Position numbers and translations under genes: made by a program. A stretch of DNA of 64,000 nucleotides from Clostridia bacterium (GTDB taxonomy: Bacteria > Bacillota > Clostridia > Peptostreptococcales > Acidaminobacteraceae), in contig JAGYOH010000012.1 of assembly GCA_018399635.1 (NCBI GenBank), forward strand, positions 1 to 64,000, read 5' to 3'. Shown here piece after piece: positions 7,342-57,662 of this stretch. The stretch's first letter is position 1. Every line of letters begins with the position of its first letter. The notes under the pieces were generated by a model. It saw only the letters and a program-made list of their open reading frames with translations. It ran no database searches and was not told the DNA's origin.

Positions 7342-7364
7342 AAGAGTGGGCCCGGCCCACTCTT
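7342..7364 (-). terminator. Leader hairpin ahead of rimP-nusA, candidate attenuator
   Basis: A perfect 10-bp stem (AAGAGTGGGC paired with GCCCACTCTT) with a 3-base loop. In the minus-strand RNA it is followed by a broken U-tract (UUAUUUAAU), so it would be a weak intrinsic terminator. It lies downstream of the promoter at 7392-7420 and upstream of rimP, as well as after the polC stop. Confidence 0.7.
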
Positions 7365-42141: not shown

Positions 42142-42158
42142 TTAGTACCTGCTACTAA
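42142..42158. promoter_or_regulatory. FapR operator
   Basis: TTAGTACCTGCTACTAA: perfect TTAGTA/TACTAA inverted repeat with a 5-base centre, matching the known FapR box. It begins at the last base of the -10 element and covers the expected transcription start. An extra half-site TTAGTAC lies at 42129-42135. Confidence 0.85.
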
Positions 42159-42955: not shown

Positions 42956-42984
42956 ATTATATAGACAGAGTTTTCTTTTGTCAA
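42956..42984 (-). promoter_or_regulatory. Consensus promoter of yceD-rpmF
   Basis: Minus strand TTGACA (42979-42984), exactly 17 bases, TATAAT (42956-42961): a perfect housekeeping promoter, about 28 bases before the start codon. Confidence 0.9.
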
Positions 42985-42994
42985 GAACTTAAAA

Positions 42995-44194
42995 TCAGAG
43001 CCCCTGGATGATTGCCACCGTATCCCTGGCAATGGTGAGTTCTTCGTTGGTGGGAATCAAAAGAACCTTGACCTTGGAATCGTCGGTGGAAATCACCCTC
43101 TCCTTGCCCCGGACATTGTTTTTTTCGTCATCGATCTTGATCCCCATGTACTCGAGGCCGTCACAGATGGCCTTGCGGTCCACCGGCGAATTTTCACCCA
43201 GACCCGCAGTGAAGACCACGGCATCCACCCCGCCCATGACGGCGGCATAGGCCGCGATGTATTTCTTGACCCGGAGTCTGAAAACGTCCACCGCCAGCTT
43301 GGCGCGTTCATTGCCGGCATCCGCCGCTTCCTCGATGTCTCTGAAATCGCTGGAAATGCCGCTGATTCCCAGAACCCCGGATTTCTTGTTGAGGATGTTG
43401 TCCATTTCCTGGATGCTCAGGTTCTCTTTGCTCATGAGAAAGGTCACGATGGCCGGATCCAGGTCACCGGTCCGGGTTCCCATGGCCAGTCCTTCTAGGG
43501 GGGTGAAGCCCATGGAAGTGGCCACGGACTTGCCGTTGAGCACTGCGGTGGCACTCGCACCGTTGCCCAGGTGGCAGGTGACGATTTTCATGTCTTTATA
43601 GTCCCGATTGAGAATCGCCGCGGCTCTTTCCGACACGTAGCGGTGGGAAGTGCCGTGGAAGCCGTAGCGTCTCAGACCGTATTTTTCATAATACTCGTAG
43701 GGCAAGGGATAAATGTAGGAGGAGGCGGGCATGGTTTGATGGAAGGCCGTGTCGAAGACCCCCACGTTGACAATCGTCGGCAGCAGTTCCTGAATCGCCT
43801 TGACCCCCATGATATTGGGCGGGTTGTGCAAGGGCGCCAGTTCGATGCAATCTTCGAGGGCCGCCATCACCTCAGGAGTGATCTTCACCGAACCGCTGAA
43901 TTTCTCGCCGGCATGGACCACCCGGTGTCCCGCCGCATCGATTTCACTGAGACTTTCAATGGCCCCGTGTTCAGGATCCACCAGCGTGTCGAGAACGACC
44001 TTCAAGGCATCCTTGTGGTCCTTCATCGGCGTCACGATCACCTGCTTATCCTTACCCACGGTTTCGTGTTTGAGTTGCGCGCCGTCAAGCCCGATTCGCT
44101 CGACAAGACCGATGGCCATGAGACTTTCCTTCTCCATATCGAGAAGCTGGTACTTTAATGATGATGATCCGCAGTTGATTACAATTACCTTCAT
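42995..44194 (-). CDS. ackA: Acetate kinase
   Basis: Makes ATP and acetate from acetyl phosphate (substrate-level phosphorylation in fermentation), reversible. 399 residues: [15 protein letters not shown] start, [48 protein letters not shown] and [11 protein letters not shown] are all intact. ATG at 44194 with AAGGAGG upstream. The phosphotransacetylase gene pta, often directly upstream, is absent; instead ackA is divergent from tmcAL across a gap containing two palindromes. Confidence 0.97.
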
Positions 44195-44220
44195 TGTTGC
44201 CTCCTTAAAACACACTTTAT

Positions 44221-44230
44221 TTGTATACAA
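44221..44230. promoter_or_regulatory. Palindrome TTGTATACAA in the ackA leader
   Basis: Perfect 10-base palindrome at about +5 to +14 of the predicted ackA transcript. The sequence resembles GntR-type operators, but the binding protein is unknown. Confidence 0.35.
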
Positions 44231-44240
44231 TACACCATTC

Positions 44241-44270
44241 ATTATACACTTGAAAACCTTTGGTTTTCAA
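44241..44270 (-). promoter_or_regulatory. Candidate promoter of ackA
   Basis: Minus strand TTGAAA (44265-44270), 18-base spacer, TATAAT (44241-44246). Its -35 lies in one arm of the 27-bp inverted repeat. Confidence 0.65.
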
Positions 44271-44273
44271 GTG
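44247..44273. promoter_or_regulatory. 27-bp inverted repeat between ackA and tmcAL promoters
   Basis: CACTTGAAAACC and GGTTTTCAAGTG (12+12, perfect) around TTT. It covers the -35 regions of both divergent promoters and lies upstream of both predicted start points, so it should act as DNA (operator) and not as an RNA hairpin. Confidence 0.6.
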
Positions 44274-44293
44274 ATAAAGAACAATGGTATAAT
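44265..44293 (+). promoter_or_regulatory. Candidate promoter of tmcAL
   Basis: TTTCAA (44265-44270), 17-base spacer, TATAAT (44288-44293). The start codon at 44310 would be only about 10 bases from the transcription start. Confidence 0.5.
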
Positions 44294-44309
44294 GATTTCG
44301 GTGAAAAAA

Positions 44310-45506
44310 ATGAAAATTCTGGGAATCATCGCTGAATACAATCCATTCCACAATGGCCATGCCCTGCACTTGAAGGAAAGCATGGCCATCAGTCACGCCA
44401 CCCACAGCCTGGCCGTCATGAGCGGTCCCCTGGTCCAACGGGGGGAACCCGCCCTCCTCGATCCCTACAAGAGGGCCGAAATGGCGGTGGATGCAGGGGT
44501 CAACCTCGTCCTGGAACTGCCGGTGCTGAGTGCCATATCCAGTGCCGGGGGCTTCGCCGAGGGCGCTGTCAAAGCCCTCGACGCCCTTGGCATCGTGGAG
44601 TCCCTGGTCTTCGGTTCAGAAAGCGACGCCCTCGAAGACCTCAAAAACCTCTCCCACCACCTCCAGGAGGAAAGCCCCCGGTTCAAGGCGACCCTGAAGC
44701 AGTTTCTAGACCAGGGAGAATCCTTCATGGGAGCCCGGGAAAAGACCCTGAGGAATCTGAACCTCATGGGCCATACCCTGAGAAGCAACGATATCCTGGG
44801 CCTCGAATACCTCAAGGCCCTGAAACGGCAAGGAAGTGCCATGGTCCCTCTGACCATCAAACGACAAAAGGCCGATTATCACGATCGGGATCTCAAGGGG
44901 GAGATCGCCAGCGCCACGGCCATCCGGCAATGGTATGAAGCCGGTCACTTCGACCTTGTCGAAAAGGCCATGCCCCCGGCCGCCTCAAGGATTCTCATAG
45001 AAGAGACCCACCCGGCCTGTTTGTCGAGGGCCTATCCCCTGATCCGCTACGCCCTCCTCACCATGGACCCGGAAAACCTCAAAGCCATTCACGAAGTCCG
45101 GGAAGGCCTTGAAAACCGCCTGATCAGGGCCGCCGCGACCGAAGTGGATTTCGAGGCCTTCATGAAAAAGGCCCTGACCAAGCGCCTGCCCAGAACCCGG
45201 ATCCAAAGAGTCCTCCTCTACCTCCTCCTGGCCCTGAGCAAAAACGACATCGTCAACAATGATCTGACCACCCCTCACTTTCTAAGGGTACTGGGAGCCG
45301 ACCGGAGGGGTCTTGAACTGATCCGACTCATTCAGAGGGCATCCGAAATCCCCTTGATCGTCAAGGAAAAGGATTTCAGGCCCGGGTCCCCCGCCGCCCG
45401 GGCCCAGCTGGCGCTTTCCCACCGGGCTCAGAACCTGAGGAGCATTCTGGCTTCAGAGCCCTTTCACAGGGATTACACCACCACACCCTATATCAAAAAG
45501 AAATAA
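44310..45506 (+). CDS. tmcAL: tRNA(Met) cytidine acetate ligase TmcAL (YlbM)
   Basis: Uses acetate and ATP to form N4-acetylcytidine at the wobble position of elongator tRNA-Met. 398 residues: nucleotidyltransferase motif AEYNPFHNGH at 8-17, SGPLVQRGEPALLDPYKRA near 42, LELPV, and SNDILGLEYLKAL further on; the C-terminal half is all-alpha. The open frame extends far upstream (to 43800) but that part lies opposite ackA. ATG 44310 (MKILGIIAEYNP) has a weak GGTGA; ATG 44292 is an alternative but sits in the predicted -10. Its divergent neighbour ackA also handles acetate. Confidence 0.93.
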   Translation: MKILGIIAEYNPFHNGHALHLKESMAISHATHSLAVMSGPLVQRGEPALLDPYKRAEMAVDAGVNLVLELPVLSAISSAGGFAEGAVKALDALGIVESLVFGSESDALEDLKNLSHHLQEESPRFKATLKQFLDQGESFMGAREKTLRNLNLMGHTLRSNDILGLEYLKALKRQGSAMVPLTIKRQKADYHDRDLKGEIASATAIRQWYEAGHFDLVEKAMPPAASRILIEETHPACLSRAYPLIRYALLTMDPENLKAIHEVREGLENRLIRAAATEVDFEAFMKKALTKRLPRTRIQRVLLYLLLALSKNDIVNNDLTTPHFLRVLGADRRGLELIRLIQRASEIPLIVKEKDFRPGSPAARAQLALSHRAQNLRSILASEPFHRDYTTTPYIKKK

Positions 45507-45529
45507 GTGCCCCATGCAAGGCACTTATT
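45502..45529. terminator. Bidirectional terminator between tmcAL and the coiled-coil gene
   Basis: Perfect 10-bp stem AATAAGTGCC/GGCACTTATT with an 8-base loop. The stop codons of both convergent genes are inside the arms (45504-45506 on plus, 45527-45525 on minus). Confidence 0.75.
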
Positions 45530-46040
45530 TTGATTCTTTGGCTTTTTTGGCTTCGTTCTTGTTGATGTATTCCTCCAGTTCGTACTTGTTCTTTTGTAGA
45601 ATCTTCAGGATTTCGTCCATGTTGTGGTGGGCCTTCTCGATGATGTCATAAGAATACAAAAAGGCGTTCTTGCGGATGTCCGAGGCCTCCTGCTGGGCCT
45701 TGAAGAGCATTTTTTCCGACTTCTGCCGGGCCAGCTCCACGATTTTATGCTCATCGAGGATGTCATCAAACTGATTTTTAGCCCCGTTGAGAATTTCATC
45801 CTCCTTGCGCTGGGCTTCATCGACGATTCTCTGGGCATCCCTTCTCGCATCCTCGATGATCTTGTTGCGCTCGTCCTTGATCCACTTGGCATGCTTCATT
45901 TCATCGGGCAAAAGAATCTGTATCTCCTTGATCAGGTTGCTCACATCGTTGCGATCCACCATGATCTTACCTGAAAATGGAACGGTGGAAGCCGCTTCCA
46001 ACAGGTTTTCCAAATCGTCCAACAGTTCTAGTACTTTCAT
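45525..46040 (-). CDS. Coiled-coil protein of unknown function
   Basis: 171 residues, no catalytic motif. An N-terminal segment (MKVLELLDDLENLLEAAS) is followed by DRNDVSNLIKEIQILLP and then a continuous charged helix from about 55 to the end, rich in Glu, Lys, Arg and Ala. This layout is found in DivIVA-like or V-ATPase subunit H-like annotations that sit beside coaD in Clostridia. It overlaps coaD by 4 bases at its end of the operon. A structural or division-associated role is a guess. Confidence 0.75.
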   Translation of the reverse strand: MKVLELLDDLENLLEAASTVPFSGKIMVDRNDVSNLIKEIQILLPDEMKHAKWIKDERNKIIEDARRDAQRIVDEAQRKEDEILNGAKNQFDDILDEHKIVELARQKSEKMLFKAQQEASDIRKNAFLYSYDIIEKAHHNMDEILKILQKNKYELEEYINKNEAKKAKESK

Positions 46041-51267: not shown

Positions 51268-51459
51268 ATGGCTAAAGTTTGTGCAGTCTGCGGCAAGGGG
51301 CAGGTTTCCGGCAACAATGTATCCCATGCCATGAATCACAATAAAAGAGTCTGGAAGCCGAATCTAAAACGCGTCAAGATCGAAGAGCAGGGAACGGTCA
51401 AGAGGATTTACGTTTGTTCACGATGCCTGCGTTCCGGCAAAGTCCAGAGAGCGGTATAA
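51268..51459 (+). CDS. rpmB: 50S ribosomal protein L28
   Basis: 63-residue ribosomal protein of the zinc-binding type: CAVCGKG (Cys5, Cys8) and CSRCLRSGK (Cys50, Cys53) supply four ligands. GGGAGGTG precedes ATG. It is a single-gene unit with its own promoter and terminator, standing against the otherwise minus-strand block, divergent from asp23 as in most Bacillota. Confidence 0.96.
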   Translation: MAKVCAVCGKGQVSGNNVSHAMNHNKRVWKPNLKRVKIEEQGTVKRIYVCSRCLRSGKVQRAV

Positions 51460-51501
51460 AAGAGTCTACTTTTTCACTTAGTAGACTCTTTTTTTTTTTT
51501 T
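51460..51501. terminator. Terminator of rpmB, usable from both sides
   Basis: Perfect 11-bp stem AAGAGTCTACT/AGTAGACTCTT with a 9-base loop, followed by a T11 tract on the plus strand. On the minus strand the same stem is followed by TTTTATA, so it can also end thiN transcripts. Confidence 0.9.
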
Positions 51502-56306: not shown

Positions 56307-57662
56307 CTATCGGTTGCGTTTGAGCCGGCAGGCAAAAAAGCCGTCCATGCCATGAGCACAGGGGGTGACCAAGAGCATGCCGTCACTCGTCAAACCTTCA
56401 TCAATTTCTCTGATCGGATCCAAGACAAAGTTCTCATGGGTCTGTAAAAATTCTTCGATGACCCCCTGATTCTCCATGACCTCGAGGGTACAGGTGCTGT
56501 AAAGGATTACACCGCCTATTTTAACATATCTGGCCGCGTTATTGATCATATTCCGCTGAATTTTTCTTAAAGACAGGATATCGCCGGGTTGGCGGTTCCA
56601 CTTGATGTCCCCTTTGCGCTGTATGATGCCGAGTCCGGAACAGGGGGCGTCGAGCAGAATCTTGTCAAAGGCATCGTCACTCTCCGGATCATGCACCGTG
56701 GCGTCTCCGATTTCGGTCCGGATGTTTTCAAGACCCAGGCGGCGGATGTTTTCCCGGATTTTTTCAAGCTTGCCCCGGGAGATGTCCCGGGCGACGACAA
56801 GCCCCTCTCCCTTCATCAGTTCTGAGAGATGGGTGGTTTTCGACCCCGGGGCCCCGCACATGTCCAGGACCCTTTCATGAGGCTTGGGGTCGAGGAGCGG
56901 CGCAATCAGAATGCTGCTCAGACTCTGAACAGTAAAAAGGCCCTCCTCGAAGGCCCGGGTCCTGACCAGCAATGCCATGTCCTCCGCCTCCACCAGGAGG
57001 GCCTGGGGACTCAAAGCCACAAGTTCGGTTTTCACCCCCTGGGATACCAGGGTTCTGACGAGTGCCTCCCGGCCGGTCTTGAGGATGTTCACCCGGATGT
57101 AGAGCCGGGGCGGGGTATTGTTGAAGGCCGCCATCCTTTTGGTGTTTTCAAGACCGAAATCCCTGATCCAGTGCGCCAGGAGCCATTCGGGATGGGAAAA
57201 CCTGATGCTGAGATCCCCGGGTGTGTCCGTGAGGCCGGCTTCAAATTCCGCCGTGATGGCCAGGCGGTTCTTGGACAGGTTCCGTAAAACACCATTGGCG
57301 AATTTCACCAGGGAGGGATTGGACTTCTTCATCAGCCGCTGGGTCTCGTTCACCGTGGCGTAGTCGGGTATGTGGTCCATGAAGAGGATTTCATAGAGTC
57401 CCAGGCGGAGAATGTTCCTGTCCGTTTCTCTGAGCTTCCTGAGCTTGATTTTTGAAATCTTTGACAGGATGCCGTCGAGATAACTCAGATTCTCCACCAC
57501 CCCCCTGACCGTGCGGGTGATGTAGGGCCTTTGTTCAGTCGTGGTCTCCTTGAGGGCCGTTTCCAGGGCGTCCTTCATGAAGACCTTTTTATGGGTAATA
57601 GCCGTCAAGGTTTTGACGGCTATTCTTCTCGGATTGAGGGTGGCCACTTTACCGCCTGGCAT
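56307..57662 (-). CDS. rsmB: 16S rRNA (cytosine(967)-C5)-methyltransferase RsmB
   Basis: Methylates C967. 451 residues: N-terminal NusB-like helical domain, then a Rossmann methyltransferase with LDMCGAPGSKTTHLSELM, LLDAPCSGLGIIQ (Cys) and YSTCTLEVMENQG (catalytic Cys), ending DGFFACRL. Start is either ATG 57662 or GTG 57647; the ribosome binding sites are weak for both and the family N-terminus (NPRRIAVKTL) fits either. Overlaps the end of the YugP-like gene. Confidence 0.94.
   Translation of the reverse strand: MPGGKVATLNPRRIAVKTLTAITHKKVFMKDALETALKETTTEQRPYITRTVRGVVENLSYLDGILSKISKIKLRKLRETDRNILRLGLYEILFMDHIPDYATVNETQRLMKKSNPSLVKFANGVLRNLSKNRLAITAEFEAGLTDTPGDLSIRFSHPEWLLAHWIRDFGLENTKRMAAFNNTPPRLYIRVNILKTGREALVRTLVSQGVKTELVALSPQALLVEAEDMALLVRTRAFEEGLFTVQSLSSILIAPLLDPKPHERVLDMCGAPGSKTTHLSELMKGEGLVVARDISRGKLEKIRENIRRLGLENIRTEIGDATVHDPESDDAFDKILLDAPCSGLGIIQRKGDIKWNRQPGDILSLRKIQRNMINNAARYVKIGGVILYSTCTLEVMENQGVIEEFLQTHENFVLDPIREIDEGLTSDGMLLVTPCAHGMDGFFACRLKRNR

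Follow-up and report, generated by a model that had tools for sequence, protein, structure and literature searches.

Background

Palindromic operators that lie over divergent promoters and are read by TetR-, MarR- or LacI-type proteins are an ordinary arrangement. Regulator sites upstream of ackA and overlapping promoters that fire in opposite directions offer two further points of comparison for the locus described here. In Bacillus subtilis, the sections of PMC3463425 that deal with ackA describe an activating CcpA cre (with CodY) that lies upstream of the -35 box and follows the consensus WTGNNARCGNWWWCAW with a CG centre. The ackA cases that appear in excerpts of PMC5320631 belong to taurine regulons of proteobacteria. 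In the bidirectional promoters of Warman and colleagues, as presented in portions of PMC12825309, one -10 element is shared by both directions and the starts are commonly 10, 18 or 23 bp apart; the same portions document competition between polymerases at symmetric promoters of E. coli.

Here we analyze a palindrome located between divergent ackA and tmcAL genes on a contig of a Clostridia bacterium (G000), within a window of 64 kb that comprises the whole stretch of DNA under study. With moderate confidence, we read this palindrome as a genus-specific two-fold operator, ACTTGAAAAC-N5-GTTTTCAAGT, for a homodimeric DNA-binding protein.

Results

A perfect palindrome lies between divergent ackA and tmcAL

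Positions 44247-44273 form a perfect 27-base inverted repeat, CACTTGAAAACC-TTT-GGTTTTCAAGTG, within the 115-bp spacer of the divergent genes (Table 1), with exactly the sequence and the coordinates given in the original prediction. The identification of the neighbouring gene as a TmcAL homologue also held, as the best PDB match of its product is the Thermotoga TmcAL (E 1.3e-61). When the 118-base spacer string was shuffled preserving dinucleotides, arms of at least 12 bases with a loop of 0-9 bases appeared in 2 out of 3000 shuffles. The window contains five perfect inverted repeats with arms of at least 11 bases, compared to none in eight composition shuffles (200-base blocks). The two-fold symmetry of the dyad is beyond chance.

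Perfect 12-base arms around a three-base loop could also form an RNA hairpin (a terminator or an attenuator) or a cruciform rather than a site for a protein, and at least two of the other four long repeats in the window look like terminators: the one at 45501-45530 was flagged as terminator-like and the one at 51458-51492 is followed by nine T. However, an intrinsic terminator consists of a transcribed G+C-rich stem and the T run behind it, while this palindrome is upstream of both predicted starts, has no T run on either side, and lies in a region (44100-44400) where no terminator was scored. The three matches returned by Rfam (E 0.43-0.92) are all far below the gathering scores. We consider a hairpin or a cruciform very improbable. 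The perfect inverted repeats at 57597-57624 (12-base arms) and 7342-7364 (11-base arms) are not followed by a clear T run.

Table 1. Coordinates of the genes, predicted promoters and repeat elements at the ackA/tmcAL locus
Feature	Position	Strand	Details
ackA, acetate kinase	42995..44194	-	TIGR00016
tmcAL homologue (tRNA acetate ligase family)	44310..45506	+	PRK13670, 364 bits (cut-off 360); TmcAL structures are the top PDB matches
Predicted ackA promoter, TTGAAA-18-TATAAT	44241..44270	-	-35 44270-44265, -10 44246-44241; 11/12; promoter scan
Predicted tmcAL promoter, TTTTCA-18-TATAAT, TG before -10	44264..44293	+	-35 44264-44269, -10 44288-44293; 10/12; promoter scan
Possible weak mirrored promoter from the left arm, TTGAAA-17-GATAAA	44250..44278	+	-35 44250-44255, -10 44273-44278; 9/12 consensus letters; by eye
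Perfect inverted repeat, 12-base arms, loop TTT	44247..44273		arms 44247-44258 and 44262-44273
Two-species form of the dyad, 11-base arms	44247-44257 and 44263-44273		centre 44258-44262
Left arm CACTTGAAAAC	44247..44257	+	inside the ackA -35/-10 spacer; inner part limited to G000 and G001
Right arm GTTTTCAAGTG	44263..44273	+	both -35 boxes inside; core TTTTCAAG

The dyad spans two overlapping predicted promoters

The promoter scan returned two sites of this quality, compared to 0.9 expected in shuffles. Their -35 hexamers overlap on opposite strands. The original prediction placed the arms over the -35 boxes of both strands; both boxes are indeed overlapped by the palindrome, but both fall within the right arm, whereas the left arm fills the ackA spacer as far as the -10. 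The two -10 boxes are separate and 41 bases apart, with predicted starts about 66 bp apart, and we rejected a symmetric bidirectional promoter on these grounds. Assuming that transcription starts around 7 nt past each -10, at about 44234 for ackA and 44300 for tmcAL, the dyad centre at 44260 would correspond to about -26 of ackA and -40 of tmcAL. The palindrome would thus be upstream of both starts, as had been proposed.

Since tmcAL may begin at an in-frame GTG at 44301 or at the ATG at 44310, its predicted leader is around 10 bases long or absent. On the minus strand, a consensus promoter (TTGACA-17-TATAAT, 12/12, 42956-42984) separates ackA from the next gene downstream, and ackA may therefore be transcribed alone.

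The overlap of the two promoters also allows an explanation that involves no regulator. The dyad would be a mirrored promoter, in which the left arm provides a second plus-strand -35 that mirrors the ackA promoter (Table 1), and the opposed polymerase sites would exclude each other, resulting in reciprocal, factor-free control. This second promoter is absent from the scan because the scan demands a T at position 6 of the -10. On both strands, and also in the congener G001, TTGAAA...GGTTTTCAAGTG is followed by a hexamer containing ATAA. Moreover, the core of the right arm coincides with a widespread ackA -35 context: 39 of the 54 ackA promoters of relatives have TTGAAA as their best -35, and AC precedes it in 20. 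Competition at symmetric E. coli promoters, described in the portions of PMC12825309 mentioned above, provides a precedent. On the other hand, the arms continue to match for five bases (CAC and AC) past the hexamer, the -10 GATAAA is a poor one and a better one, preceded by TG, lies further downstream, and the symmetry of the -35 boxes alone leaves the conservation of the arms around a changed centre unexplained. We regard a mirrored promoter as possible but rather unlikely.

Both arms are conserved and the centre has changed within the genus

G001 is the only congener listed by the family and order searches, and the conservation pattern within the genus comes from this one species pair. The two species share 63% identity in TmcAL and 368 of 399 residues in AckA, and no gaps are needed to align their spacers. 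Over the 73-bp core of the spacer (44221-44293), G001 has five substitutions, which affect four of the five centre positions, none of the 22 arm positions, and one position elsewhere. This clustering has a hypergeometric probability of 2e-5 if the substitutions are independent, although the four changes in the centre, being neighbours, may go back to one event. At four-fold degenerate sites of the flanking genes the identity is only 57% for tmcAL (73/128) and 54% for ackA (97/179), which points to strong constraint on the core. The conservation of the arms is matched elsewhere in the core, by 44221-44246 and, with one change, by 44274-44293.

Conservation of both arms around a changed centre is the pattern that would be expected of a two-fold operator, judging from the alignment of the two species. 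The left arm in particular lies in the promoter spacer, where the sequence is usually free, and its conservation therefore counts in favour of an operator.

The dyad is restricted to the genus among the genomes compared

We found a tmcAL match in 93 of 99 genomes and extracted the upstream DNA for 89 of them, leaving out G063 (contig edge), G010 (partial match), G049 and G086. A divergent ackA within 450 bases, recognized through an AckA N-terminus pattern that odd starts can escape, is found in 54 of the 89, including G000 and G001. For 41 of these 54 the spacers are comparable, with a TTTCAA -35 plus a -10-like box. All 11 arm positions pair only in G000 and G001. In the remaining 39 comparable spacers, sister genera included, the dyad is absent and 4-8 of the 11 positions pair at the best of nine gaps. 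Perfect arms of at least 11 bases occur in three of the 54 spacers, those of G000, G001 and G013, the last being an almost purely A+T repeat.

The original prediction had named the alignment of related genomes as a check of the palindrome. Its outcome is split. The arms are intact in G001, but in sister genera G003, G004 and G023 retain the genes, TTTTCAAG, the outer CACTT and both promoters with unchanged spacing, with only 6-7 of the 11 positions pairing. Of the claim that the palindrome acts as a DNA operator, what stands is a DNA-level element located where the divergent promoters overlap, with conserved arms and a changed centre in G001; its conservation does not extend beyond the genus.

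The motif TTTTCAAG is present in 27 of the 54 spacers and its inverted partner CTTGAAAA in two. Together with the pairing limited to G000 and G001, this suggests that the right arm largely corresponds to the old ackA -35 region, with the left arm as the new part. The best 80 out of 575 TmcAL relatives in a further collection of genome contigs share 34-42% identity, and none of these 80 is thus as close as G001. No TmcAL relatives were found in viral contigs.

A history of this type could also leave a palindrome that nothing reads. A mutation in the ancestor of the genus, such as template switching at an imperfect repeat, could have copied the -35 region into the spacer, and the inherited result could have been conserved for other reasons. 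The sister genera have an imperfect repeat in the same register, which keeps the outer CACTT and pairs at 6-7 of 11 positions across a gap of 5, although the other relatives also reach 4-8 of 11 when the best of nine gaps is chosen. In addition, the non-arm part of the core is equally conserved, and each genome carries one copy. On the other hand, both 11-base arms remain intact in spite of the divergence at four-fold sites, and the centre has absorbed four of the five substitutions in the core. An inherited accident is unlikely in our view, and we retain the operator as the preferred reading.

These spacers contain other shared elements. The palindrome TTGTATACAA at 44221-44230, which would occupy about +5 to +14 of the ackA transcript as predicted, has the same sequence in G001 and G004 and resembles GntR-type sites; G000 and G001 have only one other copy each, at a matching place beside a hairpin. 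A GTATAC element occurs in the spacers of 9 of the 25 family genomes with divergent ackA. In 10 of the 25 family ackA/tmcAL spacers (L175, L201, L191, L020, L202, L193, L183, L188, L190 and L197), AGTG-N-TTT-Y-GGTCA lies just downstream of the ackA -10 and is perhaps another operator or a leader element.

Known site types do not fit the dyad

Scans of the dyad with known sites and the examination of the near-match loci identified no candidate regulator gene. The fapR gene (NF003359) lies 2 kb from the palindrome, and the FapR operator is a TTAGTACC...GTACTAA-type palindrome. In the dyad region (44195-44309), FapR sites match with 7 of 15 mismatches at best, and we rejected FapR as the binder. 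A canonical FapR-type site, TTAGTACCTGCTACTAA, is instead present at 42142-42158, where the predicted fapR promoter has its -10, and is identical in G001; autoregulation of fapR, as in Bacillus, is probable.

Within the dyad, the CcpA cre (WTGNNARCGNWWWCAW with a CG centre) is matched with 3 of 13 mismatches at best, and a match with 2 of 13 mismatches lies outside the dyad, at 44292-44307. Judged by their consensus strings, sites for CodY, Rex, FNR, CRP, LexA and NrdR do not fit the dyad well; an FNR match with 2 of 10 mismatches (44271-44284) is mostly outside it. Each arm matches a BirA half-site string with 2 of 9 mismatches, but the half-sites of a complete BirA site are spaced more widely than the arms of the dyad. 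MerR-type operators are dyads centred between the -35 and the -10 of an over-long spacer. Here the ackA spacer is 18 nt, its centre is at 44255.5 rather than at the dyad centre of 44260, and the right arm covers the -35, so that this type was rejected.

No conserved regulon among the near matches examined

Allowing a gap of 1-9, we found the exact motif in 3 of 393 genomes of the order (G000, G001 and G271) and in 3 of 391 genomes of the class (G000, G489 and G683), with no occurrence of the reversed control in either draw. The two draws share 20 genomes, and G001 is outside the class draw. Each congener has one exact copy. The copy of G271 adjoins a tRNA-like sequence, that of G489 is part of a longer intergenic hairpin and that of G683 is followed by a T run. 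The family search returned exact matches in G000, G001, G034 and G039, with those of G034 and G039 within long open frames. None of the copies in G034, G039, G271, G489 and G683 is at ackA. When one mismatch is allowed, 14 of 41 family genomes match, compared to 6 of 41 for the reversed control.

At up to three mismatches, an 18-base core is found at 10 places in G000, the palindrome itself included, and the control at none. Seven of the nine other places are within open frames of at least 100 codons, which is weak evidence because the palindrome also lies in such a frame. By eye, L034 is behind a tRNA-like sequence; L035 is in no open frame of at least 100 codons. A looser arm pattern (16 letters, up to three mismatches) gives 23 matches in G000 and 20 in G001, compared to 8 and 9, respectively, for the reversed control.

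The only pair returned by blastn among eight loci from each congener was the ackA/tmcAL locus. One site with three mismatches is retained in both congeners (G000 C23:91068-91092 and G001 C14:46666-46690), in what appears by eye to be a cold-shock-like leader. Its conservation is unspecific, since the surroundings are 88% identical over 833 bases. In G000, an open frame is preceded by a site with two mismatches (C7:35975-35999), but the matching frame of G001 lacks this dyad upstream. Beyond the cold-shock-like leader site, the near matches that we examined contained no promoter dyad kept in both species and no kept regulon. These data are consistent with a possible single-target factor. The leader of the cold-shock-like gene (by eye; L245 1501-1525 and L237) is in itself strongly conserved in both congeners and includes a copy of the dyad with three mismatches.

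The proposal of joint control by a regulator tied to acetate or energy state found no support, given the single exact copy per congener, the lack of a conserved promoter dyad among the near matches examined and the poor fit of cre, CodY, Rex and FapR sites. The link with acetate or energy is a conjecture drawn from the functions of the flanking genes. The two genes are divergent in 54 of the 89 relatives examined, and of the 41 comparable spacers only those of G000 and G001 carry the dyad.

Discussion

If the palindrome is an operator, a homodimer bound to the dyad would cover the -35 and the spacer of ackA together with the overlapping -35 of tmcAL. Centred at about -26 of ackA, which is a repressing position, the bound dimer would keep RNA polymerase off ackA. 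In relation to tmcAL it would lie at about -40, where it could either block the gene by covering its -35 or contact the polymerase. Given these different distances from the presumed starts, a single protein could influence the two genes in opposite ways, and common control would not imply a common response.

In a more elaborate version, which we offer as a long shot, an undescribed single-target regulator of this clade would read the 25-bp dyad, which would have evolved by mirroring the conserved ackA -35. Such a regulator would switch ackA and tmcAL in opposite directions, coupling acetate flux to the wobble-base acetylation of elongator tRNA-Met.

Should a protein bind the dyad, acetate metabolism would be linked at the level of regulation to a tRNA modification that consumes acetate, a link of which we found no description in the open-access literature. 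Such binding would also show how the mirroring of a conserved -35 box can give rise to an operator. If no protein binds, the locus would illustrate how the symmetry of close-set divergent promoters can imitate an operator.

Among known systems, TetR-, MarR- and LacI-type operators over divergent promoters share with the dyad the two-fold symmetry, the position over the -35 and the spacer, and a variable centre. The dyad differs from them in having been found in a single genus, with no regulator gene identified and no second promoter copy found. The FapR operator is likewise a palindrome with inner CC/GG, but the canonical site of this genome sits at the fapR promoter itself rather than in the dyad. 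Like the dyad, the CcpA cre of B. subtilis is a palindromic regulator site upstream of ackA; the dyad, in contrast, covers the -35 and the spacer and departs from the cre consensus at 3 of 13 positions. The bidirectional promoters of Warman and colleagues resemble this locus in their opposed, overlapping polymerase sites and possible mutual exclusion, whereas here the -10 boxes are 41 bases apart and the predicted starts about 66.
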